Below, one piece after another: positions 27,433-38,481 of a stretch of 64,000 nucleotides of DNA. The notes beneath the pieces were generated by a model, which did not search any database, was not told the origin of the DNA, and saw nothing but the letters and a program-made list of their open reading frames with translations. The translations under genes and the position numbers were made by a program. Source of the stretch: Rhizophagus irregularis (taxonomy: Eukaryota; Glomeromycota; Glomeromycetes; Glomerales; Glomeraceae); the NCBI RefSeq assembly GCF_026210795.1, contig NC_089433.1, positions 4,613,001-4,677,000 on the forward strand, read 5' to 3'. Every line of letters starts with the position of its first letter. Positions within the stretch are counted from its first letter, which is position 1.

Positions 27433-28982
27433 TTATTCTCTCTCTTTAATTTGAAATACTTCATAGTCTTCTATTGAAAATTCATTTCCGGTATCTCTGA
27501 TCTTTTTTTCATAAAAGAACTTTTGATACCGAATATTATAATTTACAAACTCACCAGTAGCTCTTATAATAATGTCTGTGCCAAAACATGGACCACGTTT
27601 AGCGCCATAATTCAATGCATGTTCTGTATCTTTAATATTACTAATAATTGCACTTTTAATATCCTTTTCTTTAAAAGAAAAAACAAAACTATGTTTTGTT
27701 TTTCCCCAATTATCTGAAGAGCTCCACATTATCGGATTATAACCACCAATAATTTCTTCTGTTCCTTCTACTTTAATAAAGGTAATGGTATTATACTTAT
27801 CATCACATAATTCATGAAATTTTTTAGGTGTAAATCCATCTCGGCTTCCTCTTAATAATAATTGAAATTTATACGGTAAATATAATTCTCTTAAATGATC
27901 AAATCTGCTATTGTTAATAACTGTTTTATCAATCCATTTCAAAATAGTTGAGGCAATTTCTAAAGTAACAATTTTTGTATCAATAATGCTCTCAATTCTA
28001 ATATTTCTAGGAAATAAAATGCTGTCATTTGGTTCACTTTTAGGATCCAAATGAGATTTTAATAAATCTTCATAAAGTTGATGATTTAAGAGTCTTTTAT
28101 AGGGACGAACTTTTTCTAAAAAATCTTTGGATGATAAACTAAAAAATCTAATTAATGATAAACAATGTTGTAAAACATTTTTCATTGCTTTGAAATCATC
28201 ATTCGACCAAGTATTAGGATCTGGAATAAGTGTATGATTTTGTGCGAGACCCCATTTTAATACATGTTCCCAAACCTCAATTTCTTTCATTTGTAAATCA
28301 TCTCTTTTAATAAGTTGAACTAAAGATTTTTCAGGAAGAGAGGTGAAATCAAGTGATTTAAATATTTTCTCTGGAGATTTTACCATAAAATCCGTACAAA
28401 ATTGTTGAAGTTCTAATAAAGAATTTGATTGAAAGCTTGTTCTATGAATAAGTTCAAAATGTTGTTCCATCCATTCGGTTTTATTTTCAATTAAATATTT
28501 TTGTAAATAATCAACTAATTCTTGAAGTAGAAGCTCATCCGCAGCTAATAATAGATTGAGAATCTCCGAAGTGTCTTGTCCATTCAATGAAATAATACCA
28601 CCATAAATATACCTATACAAAAAATTTGAATTTCGAATTTGAAAAATTTGAAATAATTTGAATATTTAAAAATTTGGGATTATGTTATTACATATAAATT
28701 TATTGTATACAAAGTTACAAACTCTTACTTTAAAATAATCTGAAAGATTTCAGGCGATATGTTTGATAATTTAATATGAGCCAAAGAATTATCCCTATTT
28801 TTTTTATTAGAAGCCAAAGTTCGTCGTAAATATGGAGAACGGTAACACAAAATATTCATATGAGCACGAAAGATTTTTACATTAGGATCCTCTCCAACTT
28901 CAATTGTTATATCGTAATATTCATCATCATCTAATAATTCAATATAGTTTTTACTTAATTTTGAAAAAAATTGGGTAGACAT
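27433..28982 (-). CDS. BTB/BACK/TLDc protein, two exons
   Basis: Exon 1 is 28982-28729, the intron 28728-28613 (GTAAGA...TATAG, 116 bp) and exon 2 28612-27433, giving 477 residues. The split codon (AA|G) joins IILK to YIYGG. Residues about 20-120 form a BTB/POZ fold (YYDITIEVG, FRAHMNILCYRSPYLRRTL, SPEIFQIILKYIYGG), which dimerises and often binds Cullin-3. Residues about 125-220 are a BACK helical region (EVWEHVLKWGLAQN). A C-terminal TLDc domain (about 300-473) shows GSRDGFTPKKFHELCD, IGGYNPIMWSS, SFVFSF, a GPCFG motif and the closing FSIEDYEVFQI. Family members are proposed substrate adaptors or oxidation-resistance-like proteins; the specific role is unknown. The frame is intact. It lies head to head with a paralogue at 36987. 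Confidence 0.92.
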
Positions 28983-32084: not shown

Positions 32085-32790
32085 ATGAAGTTCAATATCT
32101 TCCTTCTCTTTTTGGTTATCTTCTCTGTTACCGCTTTAGCTGTACCAGTTGAATTGAATCATTATTGTAAGTATTTCCATTGTGGTTACTAAAATAATTA
32201 AATGTTAATTTTTTATTTCATTTTAATTAATAAATAGGTGATTATTGTAAGTATTACTCCTGTTCATTTCCGGTTGGTACAAGCTAAATCGAATCAACCA
32301 ACCGGACTGGAAATGAACCGGCCTATTATATTACACTCGATGTTATTATTAACTGAAAATATTAAACTTTAATTTTCCATTTACTTAATTTTAATTAAAT
32401 AATGTATAGACTGTAAGTATTCATCATTGTTGTTATTATTTTATGGTACCTATTTTTGAAAATACTAACTAATAAATTAATAAATAGGCTGTAAGTATCG
32501 GCTTTATATATAATAGTTATTACTGTATTATGTTTTTAAAATATTTAAAATTTAAAATATTTTACCTTTAAAATATATATATATATATACACATTAAATA
32601 CTAGGCTGGGGTAAGTTATTATATTTGATGTTTATTGTTTTAAAACAAATATTAACTTTTTTATCTTTCCTTTTATTTTTAAATAATAGAATGTAAGTGT
32701 TAACATTATTATTACACACAATGTTATTGTTCTTACAAAAATATTAATAAATGCCAATTTTTCTTTTATCACTTAAATAACAAATAGTTT
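32085..32790 (+). CDS. Small secreted peptide gene with a micro-exon array
   Basis: Exon 1 (32085-32166) encodes a textbook signal peptide (MKFNIFLLFLVIFSVTALA) and then VPVELNHY, ending in phase 1 at T|GTAAGT. Six further acceptor/donor pairs follow, each TAG then a few bases then GTAAG: 32238-32246 (9 nt), 32410-32412 (3), 32488-32490 (3), 32605-32610 (6), 32690-32692 (3) and 32788-32790 (3). All lengths are multiples of three, so phase is kept. Introns are 71, 163, 75, 114, 79 and 95 bp. Joined, they add C-D-Y-Y-C-C-W-E-F after NHY. No final exon was found: the last donor at 32791 has no clear acceptor before the ORF at 32867. Retention of intron 1 would instead stop after YCKYFHCGY. The product is presumably an extracellular peptide of unknown function. 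The alternatives are recursive splice sites or a decaying tandem intron array. Confidence 0.55.
32262..32318. repeat. Strong hairpin inside intron 2 of the secreted-peptide locus
   Basis: GTTCATTTCCGGTTGGT (32262-32278) pairs with ACCAACC and GGAAATGAAC (32297-32318), leaving a 5-nt bulge and an 18-nt loop. It explains why this intron is about twice as long as most of the others. If the intron is retained, the left arm encodes the peptide tail CSFPVGTS before a stop. Confidence 0.75.
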
Positions 32791-32866
32791 GTAAGTATCT
32801 TCATTACCATTAGTATTACAAAAATATAAAAATTTTTTATTTTTTCTTATTAAAACACTAATAAAT

Positions 32867-33793
32867 ATGGAGTCATACCGAGGGCAAGAGGAGTTCGAGG
32901 AACATCTCTTAAAAGAAGTCAAGTCTTTTGTGGGCAAAAATTTTACAAAAGCCAACTCTAGGCATAAAGACGAGTTAGAGGATATTTTCGACAAAATATT
33001 TTTCAGGACGCTAAAAACACATAGGCTACTAGTGGAAATAAGTAATATTACTGGCATAAAAGGTGAAACCATAGAAATAATAGCCAGGAGTATACTGAGG
33101 TTCGCATATAGAGAACATGATAATGATGTCAAAAGAATTGGAAACCAGAATATTCGCCTTCGTTCATGGCTGCGGCAGGCGCAGCAAAAACCTTCAACAC
33201 ATGATACACATCTAGATAAAGAAATAGAATGCGAGTTAAAAACACCAATCAAAAACGTCTCGAAACAAAGAAAAACGCCAAAAAATAAAAAACGTGAAAA
33301 AAAATTAGTTAAGGAAATTGTGCTCCCAACAAAAGTCGATCAGTTATCGATCCAAAAAAATTCTGGGGCTCAAAGTACAACATCACGTGACATATTATTT
33401 TACGACATACCATCAAGATATAGTGAGGAAGAGGTGGTCAATGCCATAAAACAGTTAGGCGAGGTACATAGAATTAGGATCAAAAAACATTACAAATACC
33501 AATCAGTAAGAGCGGACATATCATTATTGGAAGACTATGAGAACTCCTTCTTGAAAGGAGCGTGGAAGGAGAAAGTTTTAATAGGAAGCAACGAAAAAAA
33601 TAAAAAAATCATTGACATTCGTTGGTTCAAAGGAGACAGGACAGTTAAAGATATAAAAGAAAAATGCAAATGGAAAGCTTACAAAGTAATTCGGATGAAT
33701 TACTACCAAGATATAGCGAGAAAAAATTATACTTTTGAGTATGGAAAAATAGCTCGTTTTGGAAATAAAGACAGTTTTCTTGGCATACTTTAA
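32867..33793 (+). CDS. RRM-like nucleic-acid-binding protein, first ORF
   Basis: A 308-residue intact frame. Residues 1-110 are helical and charged (KNFTKANSRHKDELEDIFDK), and 115-160 are Lys-rich and probably disordered or nuclear-targeting. Residues about 175-255 resemble an RNA recognition motif: ILFYDIPSRY as an RNP2-like first strand, EEEVVNAIKQLGEV as helix 1, and a YQSVRADISL strand in the RNP1 place. Base composition is more balanced than in the surroundings. Proteins of this style are highly repeated in Rhizophagus-type genomes and may be ORF1 of a non-LTR retrotransposon or a derived gene. That is inference, since no reverse transcriptase is present here. The final 35 bp overlap the next frame. 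The start lies where an eighth TAATAAATAG-type acceptor would be expected. Confidence 0.6.
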   Translation: MESYRGQEEFEEHLLKEVKSFVGKNFTKANSRHKDELEDIFDKIFFRTLKTHRLLVEISNITGIKGETIEIIARSILRFAYREHDNDVKRIGNQNIRLRSWLRQAQQKPSTHDTHLDKEIECELKTPIKNVSKQRKTPKNKKREKKLVKEIVLPTKVDQLSIQKNSGAQSTTSRDILFYDIPSRYSEEEVVNAIKQLGEVHRIRIKKHYKYQSVRADISLLEDYENSFLKGAWKEKVLIGSNEKNKKIIDIRWFKGDRTVKDIKEKCKWKAYKVIRMNYYQDIARKNYTFEYGKIARFGNKDSFLGIL

Positions 33794-34664
33794 AAATGAA
33801 GATCAGTCGAATAGTGCAATCACTCTGGACGGTGGAATCACAGATCAAGCCTGGATTATTCACGGAAAGCGTCAAGATGGTGTGCCAAAGAAGTCTTCAA
33901 AAGAGGATCTTCCAAAGGCCCTTATCAGTACGGTTCCGAATAATAAAAAAGAAGAGCAGATGACAACAATCATTATGCCAACAACTATTAAAGATATAAC
34001 CACGGAAGAGGTAGTTGATACCGTTAATAAATATAGGAAAAACCTGCTAAATGAAAAGCAAGTTAAAATGATATCGCCTCCACTAAAAGATTACACTTCT
34101 ATGGATAATGTGGTTAGAATCATAGAAGAGTATAGAGAAGAGATAATGGTTGAACATGGAAAGGTGGCATTCAATAATACAATAATGATTGAATCATCAA
34201 AAGAAGATAGTGCTGCTGAGAATATAAGAGTCGGAGACACGAAAAATAATAATAAAGCTAAGGGTGCTTTAACTAAAAACGTTGTCAACGACAAAAAAGA
34301 TAAGTCAGTGTGCACCAAACATGGCGAAAAGATAGTTACCCCAGTGGAATTACATGAATACACCAAAGTCAACGCTGATTGTACTAAAAGACTACCAAAG
34401 AAAAGTGAGTATCCATTTACTCTTTCAAATCGTAATCCATTTGATATAGGTAAAGGTAGTGATTTTACATCATCATCGGATGATGAAGAACACATAAAAG
34501 AAGTCAAGAAGCGTATAAAGAAAAAACAAGGAACGCGCAGTGACGTGGAATACGAAGAGTCGGAAGACGGTTTCAGAGAAGTTAAAAAAGAAAGAAGACC
34601 TTGGGCCGGGAAGCCTGGAAGCAGGATGGGCCGAAAAAAGAAAAAGGGTCAAAACAAAAAGTAG
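33759..34664 (+). CDS. Lys/Glu-rich continuation of the RRM-like unit, second ORF
   Basis: A 301-residue frame, shifted by one base relative to the first ORF and overlapping its end. The text reads on naturally (first frame ...GNKDSF, second frame LAYFKNEDQ), so a single-base indel beside the TTTTC run at about 33775 would join both into one protein of about 600 residues. The remainder is low-complexity and charged, with repeats of the type TTEEVVDTVNKYRKN / SMDNVVRIIEEYREE, an acidic SSSDDEEH stretch and a basic tail ending GRKKKKGQNKK. It is probably unstructured and nucleic-acid or chromatin associated. The break could be a mutation, a sequencing error or a programmed shift. Confidence 0.5.
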   Translation: MEIKTVFLAYFKNEDQSNSAITLDGGITDQAWIIHGKRQDGVPKKSSKEDLPKALISTVPNNKKEEQMTTIIMPTTIKDITTEEVVDTVNKYRKNLLNEKQVKMISPPLKDYTSMDNVVRIIEEYREEIMVEHGKVAFNNTIMIESSKEDSAAENIRVGDTKNNNKAKGALTKNVVNDKKDKSVCTKHGEKIVTPVELHEYTKVNADCTKRLPKKSEYPFTLSNRNPFDIGKGSDFTSSSDDEEHIKEVKKRIKKKQGTRSDVEYEESEDGFREVKKERRPWAGKPGSRMGRKKKKGQNKK

Positions 34665-34678
34665 ACTAGGTTTGTTAG

Positions 34679-34973
34679 CCCTATAAAAAAAGAAAATTCG
34701 GAATTTGTCCTGAAAAGTATGGAAAATGTCCGGAAATTTTCCATGCATCCGGAAAACATTCAGAAACGGTCACGTTTTGGAACACTTTCTGGACGCACAA
34801 ATTCCAGACATTTTCTTGACACTTCAGAATTTGTCCAGAATTTGTCCAGAATCGAGCGTCCGGAAAATGTTCCAAAACGTGACCATTTCCGAATGTTTTC
34901 TGGACGCACGGAAAATTTCCAGACATTTTCCATACTTTTCAAGACAAATTTTGAATTTTCTTTTTTTATAGGG
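34679..34973. mobile_element. 295-bp foldback MITE, copy 2
   Basis: It has the same length, ends and internal structure as the element at 282-576, differing by scattered substitutions, many of them transitions. It is bounded by TAG on both sides (34676-34678 and 34974-34976). It sits 14 bp after the stop codon of the second RRM-like ORF, so it probably lies in that gene's 3' untranslated region and would form a long hairpin in the transcript. Confidence 0.88.
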
Positions 34974-34976
34974 TAG

Positions 34977-35216
34977 TGTAGAATAATGAGATATACCCAT
35001 GTATGTAAATATTTTTAGATAGGTTGGTGTAGGGGTTAAAGGTGTTGATCGGGGACGGTAGTTGCCTTGACATGGAGAGAATGAGTAGTTTTTAGATTGC
35101 TCATTTTCAATGGGTATATTGAGGTTATTCTACTGCTTATGTTTGTACTAGTACGCGAAATACTAACATAGGTTTTTTTAATCAATAAATATGCATTTGT
35201 CATTGGAAAAAAAAAA
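34977..35216 (+). other. Probable 3' untranslated region with A-tail
   Basis: After the MITE, a GC-richer segment (GGTTGGTGTAGGGGTTAAAG and following) leads to AATAAAT at 35184-35190 and, 17 bp on, a run of ten A at 35207-35216. A poly(A) signal followed at the right distance by an A-run suggests either the cleavage site of the RRM-like gene or the fixed tail of a retroposed copy. Confidence 0.4.
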
Positions 35217-36986: not shown

Positions 36987-38481
36987 ATGAATGATAATAA
37001 ATTTTTACCAAAATTATCACAAAATTTACTTGAAATATTAAATGATGAAAAATATTATGATATTACTATTGAAGTTGGTAATGACCCTTATGTAAAGATT
37101 TTTCGTGCGCACATGGTCATTTTACATTATCGTTCAACTTATTTGCAAAGAATTTTGTCAACTAGTAATATGGAAAATGATGGAACTTTAACACATATTA
37201 AATTACCGAACATATCACCTGAAATATTTCAAATAATTTTAAGGTAAATAATTTTATAAAACAGATTATATTCATGATAATTCTTTTTATTCATAATATA
37301 ATATTTTTTTATATTTTAGGTATATTTATGGTGGAAAACTTTCTTTAGAAGAATATGATACTCTGGATATAATTAAAATCTTGGTTTCTTCTAACGAACT
37401 TAATCTTCAAGAATTAACCACGTATTTACAATTTTATTTGATTGAAAATAAAACAGATTGGATGGAAGAAAATTTTAGTTTAATATATCAAACAAGTTTT
37501 GAAAATGATTCTTTCTTGGAACTTCGCAAATATTGTATTGATTTAATTTCTAAAGAACCAAATAAGATATTTAATTCCATAAATTTTTCTTCAATTTCAG
37601 AAAATCTTTTGTTTACAATTATTCAAAGTGATAACCTTCAAATGAGTGAAATTCAAATTTGGGAAAATGTTCTTAGGTGGGGAATCGCTCAAAATCTGGA
37701 TCTTCCTTCTGATTTTACAGACTATTCTCAAAATGATTTTAATAATTTAAAGAATACCTTACAACGGTTTATTCCATTTATTAAATTCTACAATTTAACT
37801 TCTAAAGAATTTTTAGAAAAAGTATTCCCCTATGAAAAAATATTTCCAGAAGATTTATATAGAGATTTATTAAGAGTTTATTTAAGTCTTTCAGATCCTA
37901 ATAGCAAACCAAGTAATAATACAAAACTTGGTATAACTAAAGAAAGTAAAAGAACAGTGGACTCAAAAATTATAACTTATCAACATGTTGAATTAATTTC
38001 AAAATGGATCGATAGATTAGAAATTACTGACAAGTTAATTTCTTCATATGAATTCAGATTATTGTATCGTGCATCTCGTGGTGGATATTCACATAAAAGA
38101 TTTCATGAAATTTGTGACAATCAACCTCGCACTGTAACACTTGTTAAAGTAAAGGATAGTAACGAAATTCTCGGAGGATATAATCCACTTGAATGGAAAT
38201 CGGATGAAGGTTTCAGCACTACTAAAGATAGTTTTATATTTTCCTTTAGCAATGAAGAAATTGAAAATTATATTTTAAGTCGTGTAATTATTGAAAAGAG
38301 TGCTATCTACAATAGTCCTAATACGGGACTATCATTTGGTGAAAGTGATCTTAAGTGGAAAATATGGCTTGGACTATGGCTTGGTAATTGTAAAAAATCT
38401 ACTTATGAAAACCCGATTAGAAAAATCGAGGGAAAATTTGCTGCAGAAGAATTTGAAGTATTTCAGATTGTACTTGATTGA
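36987..38481 (+). CDS. BTB/BACK/TLDc protein, two exons
   Basis: Exon 1 is 36987-37243, the intron 37244-37319 (GTAAAT...TTTTAG, 76 bp) and exon 2 37320-38481, giving 472 residues. The intron splits the Arg codon AG|G between IIL and YIYGG, exactly where the paralogue at 27433-28982 is split. The BTB core is at about 20-120 (YYDITIEVGND, FRAHMVILHYRSTYL, SPEIFQIILRYIYGG). BACK follows (IQIWENVLRWGIAQN, about 220). TLDc covers about 300-470 with SRGGYSHKRFHEICD, LGGYNPLEW, DSFIFSF, GLSFGESDL and FAAEEFEVFQI. The likely role is an adaptor or stress-related TLDc protein, inferred from family. The two paralogues differ throughout, so the duplication is not recent. The frame is intact. Confidence 0.92.

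Follow-up and report, generated by a model that had tools for sequence, protein, structure and literature searches.

The closest known kind of gene to the one considered here, judged by architecture alone, would be the micro-exon genes (MEGs) of schistosomes, in which a signal peptide is followed by many tiny, mostly in-frame exons and which encode variable secreted proteins (PMC10526429). That source describes 35 such genes with 10–20 exons per gene and introns of 0.1–5 kb; their exon size is given as 3–81 bp in the abstract and as 6–81 bp in the text, most being of 15 bp. The likeness to the Rhizophagus irregularis family described below lies in the signal peptide and the many tiny in-frame exons that follow it, whereas the R. 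irregularis exons are mostly 3 nt, the introns mostly about 70–120 nt, and up to 139 such exons occur per locus. Many R. irregularis arrays also belong to kinase genes, and we claim no homology. What sets the arrays apart from MEGs is thus their uniform 3-nt exons, their length, their linkage to kinases and their scale.

Aphid bicycle genes are another group of micro-exon-rich secreted effector genes; they belong to an insect, have longer exons and encode different peptides than the R. irregularis arrays. The common origin of these effectors emerged from their exon–intron structure, and the SP7-like effectors of arbuscular mycorrhizal fungi were recognized as a family by an intron conserved ahead of the first repeat (PMC11333574, available sections). 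SP7-like effectors are secreted and belong to the same fungus as the arrays, but a micro-exon array is not described for them in those sections. Lone ultra-short exons have been reported in Fusarium CYP621A (1 nt), in plant APC11 and VPS55 (1 nt) and in Drosophila homothorax (3 bp) (PMC12940212, PMC8831610 and PMC7392893, each available in part). These cases indicate that spliceosomes can include exons of 1–3 nt, in fungi too, but they are isolated, lie in ordinary genes and form no arrays. The Fusarium exon is backed by read-archive data according to the accessible text (PMC12940212), and 1–3-nt fungal exons are therefore not impossible in principle. None of the matches listed from the open-licence PMC literature describes arrays of this kind in arbuscular mycorrhizal fungi, and the words microexon, micro-exon and short exon are all absent from the main text of the assembly paper (PMC10234402), whose annotation drew on Illumina and Nanopore RNA-seq of this strain.

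The window, that is, the whole 64,000-nt stretch of R. irregularis DNA analysed here, lies at G000:C5:4613001-4677000. It contains 26 GTAAGT motifs on the plus strand and 8 on the minus strand, and carries a gene in which a signal-peptide exon (judged by eye) is followed by exons of 9, 3, 3, 6, 3 and 3 nt, in phase 1 throughout. Its features and those of its paralogue L007 compare as follows.

Exon 1, 32085–32166, plus strand: 82 nt, signal peptide MKFNIFLLFLVIFSVTALAVPVELNHY, phase 1 at its end, with GTAAGT next.
Intron 1, 32167–32237, plus strand: 71 nt, likewise 71 nt in L007.
Exon 2, 32238–32246, plus strand: 9 nt, GTGATTATT; GTGATT in L007.
Intron 2, 32247–32409, plus strand: 163 nt, 101 nt in L007; an imperfect palindrome spans 32252–32328.
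Exon 3, 32410–32412, plus strand: 3 nt, ACT, the same in L007.
Exon 4, 32488–32490, plus strand: 3 nt, GCT, the same in L007.
Exon 5, 32605–32610, plus strand: 6 nt, GCTGGG; GCGCGG in L007.
Exon 6, 32690–32692, plus strand: 3 nt, AAT; AAG in L007.
Exon 7, 32788–32790, plus strand: 3 nt, TTT; TAT in L007; the final recognizable micro-exon of the window.
Dispersed element, 32815–34664, plus strand: 5′ boundary approximate (32814–32820); 34664 is only the end of its second ORF, and the right end is unmapped.

All six internal exons are preceded by TAG and followed by GTAAGT, and all six are multiples of three in one phase. The first-pass annotation of this DNA had proposed precisely a signal-peptide exon with six in-phase modules of 9/3/3/6/3/3 nt, and both this module plan and phase 1 were confirmed; its intron size of about 75–95 bp was too narrow, the measured introns being 71, 163, 75, 114, 79 and 95 nt in order. 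The arms of the palindrome in intron 2 lie at 32252–32274 and 32306–32328. The joined product reads MKFNIFLLFLVIFSVTALAVPVELNHYCDYYCCWEF, with the tail CDYYCCWEF. Genes with BACK/TLDc domains flank the locus at 27433–28620 (minus strand) and 37381–38481 (plus strand).

The plan of the window gene is common to five paralogues (L007, L008, L009, L040 and L041), and all six genes meet, by eye, the micro-exon gene criterion of many micro-exons after a signal-peptide exon. Six other places were returned with the predicted peptide as query. Those on C14, C6 and C29 have a like first exon followed by micro-exon arrays, and the remaining three do not; among the latter is L011 (C4), where no recognizable array was found despite a first exon resembling that of the window. 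A splice-context pattern led to two further genes, on C21 and C32. An exon like window exon 1 is present in L007, L008 and L009. Gene models built by hand gave the peptides ...EKDCDYCCAEVCVCCS (L007), ...ERDCPVKCCWVGGYCVCCE (L008), ...SRGCCFCVGGRSCLAICCDQKVEQ followed by a stop (L009), ...RFWCDGCLGCKGNCAICC followed by a stop (L040) and ...DGCCWCVGFVTCRYDL... (L041). Exactly six cysteines follow exon 1 in four of the five models, and L041 has four, besides an odd ending. Phase 1 is held until an 8-nt exon in L007 and a 5-nt exon in L008, both near the 3′ end, shift the frame to phase 0. Donors other than GTAAGT in these models comprise GTAACT, GTACGT, GTATCT, GTATGT, GTAAAT and GTAAGG; L009 and L040 each have a single acceptor that reads AAG. 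At about 1518–1700 of L009, two candidate terminal exons are each preceded by a TCY exon, which suggests alternative 3′ ends of the secreted peptide.

The window copy itself is a 3′-truncated member of this family. Past its counterpart of exon 7, L007 has three extra exons (GTG, TTT and GCTGCAGC) that supply its last three cysteines; no counterparts of the paralogues’ last cysteine exons were matched in the window, and comparison with L007 revealed no additional paralogue exons past 32851. The gene had earlier been taken to end at 32866, which cannot be kept: homology to L007 stops at 32818 and a dispersed repeat starts at about 32814–32820, so that the copy has been cut short. If the last window intron is retained, the frame stays open for seven codons after exon 7 and then meets a TAG at 32811–32813. 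The dispersed element was found at 11 other genome places, starting at query base 26 (three), 25 (one), 31 (five) or further in (two), and its ORFs (32867–33793 and 33759–34664) had no Pfam match at E 0.01.

Across the genome (146,748,485 bases in 32 contigs, both strands searched), TAG-N3-GTAAGT occurs 6,435 times versus 1,477 for the reversed-pattern control. The same pattern with other spacers gave 1,055 (N2), 881 (N4) and 878 (N6) occurrences, which leaves an excess of about 5,400 exact-consensus 3-nt modules over these counts; N1, N5 and N9 were outside the comparison. With N6 at only 878, 6-nt exons are not enriched genome-wide, though the window has one. Among the matches listed for N3, 100 places that are all on contig 1, most are clustered, many of them about 80–110 nt apart. 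An adjacent acceptor and donor, with short, regular introns around them, also look like what recursive splicing would use, the modules then being ratchet points inside one long intron whose 3 nt are removed later or never kept. However, the criterion for ratchet sites, an enrichment of zero-length exons, is unmet: TAG directly followed by GTAAGT, a shorter pattern, was unenriched (1,620 versus 4,667 for its reversed control), and three inspected tandem clusters of such sites resemble 25–26-nt exons ending in TAG. Neither the recurrent cysteines of the paralogues nor the avoidance of stops in one frame described below would be needed if the 3 nt were discarded. We thus disfavour recursive splicing and regard it as highly improbable.

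The earlier description of this locus was correct in its structure and too small in its scope, as the window gene represents a small secreted family beside a far larger set of arrays that lie mostly in kinase genes. Arrays were seen at L001, L002, L004, L005 and L013–L025, with L014 and L018 holding three 3-nt modules or fewer, and the pattern TAGTGGGTAAGT gave arrays in 8 of 14 fetched loci (L026–L030 and L034–L036). Of the 31 pattern places, five fell within loci already sampled, and C14:3083303 and C23:3384647 were left out. No useful array was found in L003 (two 3-nt modules), in L006 (one), in three of six fetched loci (L010–L012), in the other six of the 14 (L031–L033 and L037–L039) or in three of five (L042–L044). 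The 24 loci pooled for analysis are a sample of arrays and not the full set. Counts of 3-nt exons in chains per locus, flanks included, reach 139 in C11, 78 in C7, 74 in C13 and 68 in C24.

The majority of the 24 pooled array loci lie upstream of protein-kinase domains. A motif scan for kinase exons took in 23 loci (L028 and L034 were left out) and placed the first kinase exon downstream of the array in 18, directly after a 1-nt exon (for example, RFGKSGNTIIDEFILEKKLKWIPYNKFKNVEYLNEGGFSTIYKAIW in L019). Only the second kinase exon was found in L018, and the scan detected none in the fetched sequence of C11 (21 kb), C13, C23 and L020. All eight downstream ORFs submitted matched the Pfam kinase models PF00069/PF07714; the first-kinase-exon fragment of L001 alone was below the Pfam cut-off, and the second exons were clear. 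The 1-nt exon (A, or G in C7) is present in 20 of the 23 scanned loci. Thirteen of these loci had been fetched with a pattern containing that exon, which is present in 7 of the 10 others; genome-wide, the 1-nt-exon pattern occurs 49 times versus 5 for reversed controls. A leader of the form [L/F]-[S/N/E]-[D/N]-W-[F/Y] recurs (LSDWF, LNDWY and FNDWF, for example), and a plausible start exon in L004 and L005 (MGQSNGK and MAHSNDK) also leads, by eye, to phase 1. In L004, where the gene is on the minus strand, an insertion at about 880–1320 with short direct repeats at its flanks interrupts the kinase exon. Some arrays are gapped, with spacings of about 170–440 nt and a recognizable splice site missing where a unit is expected, and hence some may be decayed or their models incomplete.

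The reading frame served as a test of whether the arrays are coding. A phase-1 codon consists of the final base of one exon and two bases of the next. Chains for the frame test were made of 3-nt exons only and broken where modules lay <60 or >130 nt apart; L018 was left out, having no chain, and L014 gave one chain of two. The 24 pooled loci provided 918 3-nt exons and 839 junctions with a single phase-1 stop (ATT-AGA in L028), versus a mean of 36.0 and a minimum of 21 in 5,000 within-locus shuffles and 133 stops in the alternative split frame, phase 2. Fisher’s p for this avoidance was 4e-25, and 1.7e-9 on 385 globally distinct exon pairs. The first sampled set had no stop in 407 junctions (mean 14.1 in 2,000 shuffles), and the second, separately sampled set of 8 loci had one in 313 (15.2 expected). 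Seven exons of the pooled set are themselves stop triplets, which is relevant solely to phase 0. One stop in 839 junctions, versus 36 by shuffling and 133 in the other split frame, argues that the arrays are very probably coding, in the absence of RNA evidence. The initial reading of coding micro-exons gains strong support from both the paralogues and the frame statistics, with inclusion in RNA remaining an inference. A branch-like motif (CTAAY/TTAAC) occurs in 682 of the 839 introns versus 322 after one mononucleotide shuffle, CTAAY lying most often 40–46 nt from the intron 3′ end; this support is weak because the introns duplicate one another and are not independent.

The frame statistics also bear on whether the arrays are merely decaying or non-functional tandem intron satellites, expanded by slippage with the modules as a by-product. 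Tandem duplication of units is evident in C11 (36 diagonal runs, which overlap and are each at least 4 units long), several loci are gapped or poor in modules (L003, L005, L014 and L020), and the window copy has lost its 3′ part, all of which such satellites would accommodate. Plain satellite DNA or a non-functional intron array does not, however, explain the conservation of frame, as the stop avoidance is frame-specific in both separately sampled sets and in the pooled one; nor does it account for a recurring leader and kinase exon or for an exon length fixed at 3 nt without an N2 or N4 excess. We disfavour it accordingly and give it very little credence. Genuine coding micro-exon arrays remain the full account that we hold with high confidence, from the genome sequence of one isolate assembly alone, with splicing, secretion and function inferred.

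Exons and introns of the arrays differ in their extent of change. Each unit was paired with the unit of the same locus that it most resembled in the 40-nt flanks alone. In the 201 pairs with no more than 2 mismatches per flank, the mismatch was 0.192 in exons versus 0.013 in the flanks, and exons exceeded flanks in 15 of 17 loci; with at most 8 (316 pairs), the values were 0.233 and 0.041, exons exceeded flanks in 22 of 22 loci, and the most variable 3-nt flank window reached 0.094. At a limit of 4 mismatches, 108 of 254 exon pairs differed versus 6.4% of flank 3-mers. Among similar units within one array, the per-site exon difference is thus about 5–15 times that of the flanking intron. Conservation of splice sites among units is not evidence, since the units were found by those sites. 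Nor do we claim diversifying selection on amino acids: the raw third-position counts (4 synonymous, 36 nonsynonymous, with both directions counted) are inflated by repeats, and de-duplicated contrasts were synonymous in 2 of 9 (p 0.098). The exon/intron contrast fits diversifying selection, but also older exon differences with later homogenization or spread of introns.

Introners are a source of intron bursts, and an introner-like spread would have inserted near-identical introns between the old codons of an ordinary exon, the exon differences being old. It is compatible with coding arrays and opposes only the fast evolution of exons, so our estimate for it is not additive with those for the other alternatives. 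Introns within an array are indeed far more alike than exons, as such a spread would predict; to insert introns at 3-nt intervals, always in one phase, over tens to >100 codons would, however, be hard to achieve, and in C11 the interior exons of multi-unit blocks duplicated in register still differ more than the introns (93 of 474 exon nt versus 3.4%, from the 36 runs, which are not independent). The same comparison had too few runs to be informative in C13 (0 of 9 exon nt differing) and in L017 (2 of 21). On this evidence, introner-like spread seems unlikely to us, without being negligible.

Under the coding reading, exons of 3 nt (or 6 or 9 nt) would lie in phase 1 between ordinary GT–AG introns, mostly about 70–120 nt long, and a codon would be completed only through splicing, from the last base of one exon and the first two of the next. 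Splicing would probably proceed by intron definition, one short intron per step, which is inferred. The predicted product of the window family is a signal peptide with a short peptide bearing six cysteines in the fuller models, whose codons are often split over a junction as T/GC or T/GT. In the kinase set, the putative order is a leader, a variable part to which an exon contributes one residue, a phase-resetting 1-nt exon and the protein kinase domain. Because all units are in frame, duplication or loss of a unit adds or removes residues without a frameshift, and this, together with exons differing more than introns, makes the arrays probably fast-evolving recognition or regulatory segments, a function that is inferred; a role in recognition, signalling or symbiosis is likewise an inference. 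The broadest form of this idea is a genome-wide system of one-codon cassettes, in which 3-nt exons number in the thousands, form arrays of tens to >100 and diversify several-fold faster than their introns. Each array would then serve a kinase as a mutable N-terminal segment for recognition, or make up a secreted peptide, and single residues could be gained, lost, swapped or alternatively skipped in frame. For this broadest form, we consider the case evenly balanced.

If transcripts confirm the arrays, they would have the shortest exons of any gene arrays known to us, with about 5,400 exact-consensus 3-nt exons, in a fungus that lives in symbiosis with most land plants. Many kinase genes may then be annotated without their variable part, and the arrays would constitute a large-scale test of the lower limit of exon recognition and a case of residue-by-residue protein evolution without the risk of frameshift. 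Arrays of >100 one-codon exons, once confirmed by RNA, would deserve a class of their own beyond a variant of micro-exon genes.

Several further observations concern the composition of these sequences. Of 915 3-nt exons in the pooled array loci, 774 have T or G as their middle base. The predicted array peptide of G000:C11:881276-895336 has a roughly four-residue hydrophobic period, with pieces such as IEKEIEKGIEWKKME, and is possibly helical. In the L036 and C24 arrays, the 6-nt exons CAGGTG and CAGCAA occur, in which a second in-frame acceptor CAG could yield a 3-nt exon. Tandem apparent exons of 25–26 nt, GGAATCGGTATAACGAATCCCATAG-like, are found at three places on contig 1 (L054–L056; C1:2810600-2811500, 2916500-2917800 and 129000-130000); they mostly end in TAG before GTAAGT, with a spacing of 94–99 nt in 5 of 9 gaps. 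Within the window, a repeat at 34675–34977 is 94% alike to 278–580 and is also 85.5% self-complementary.
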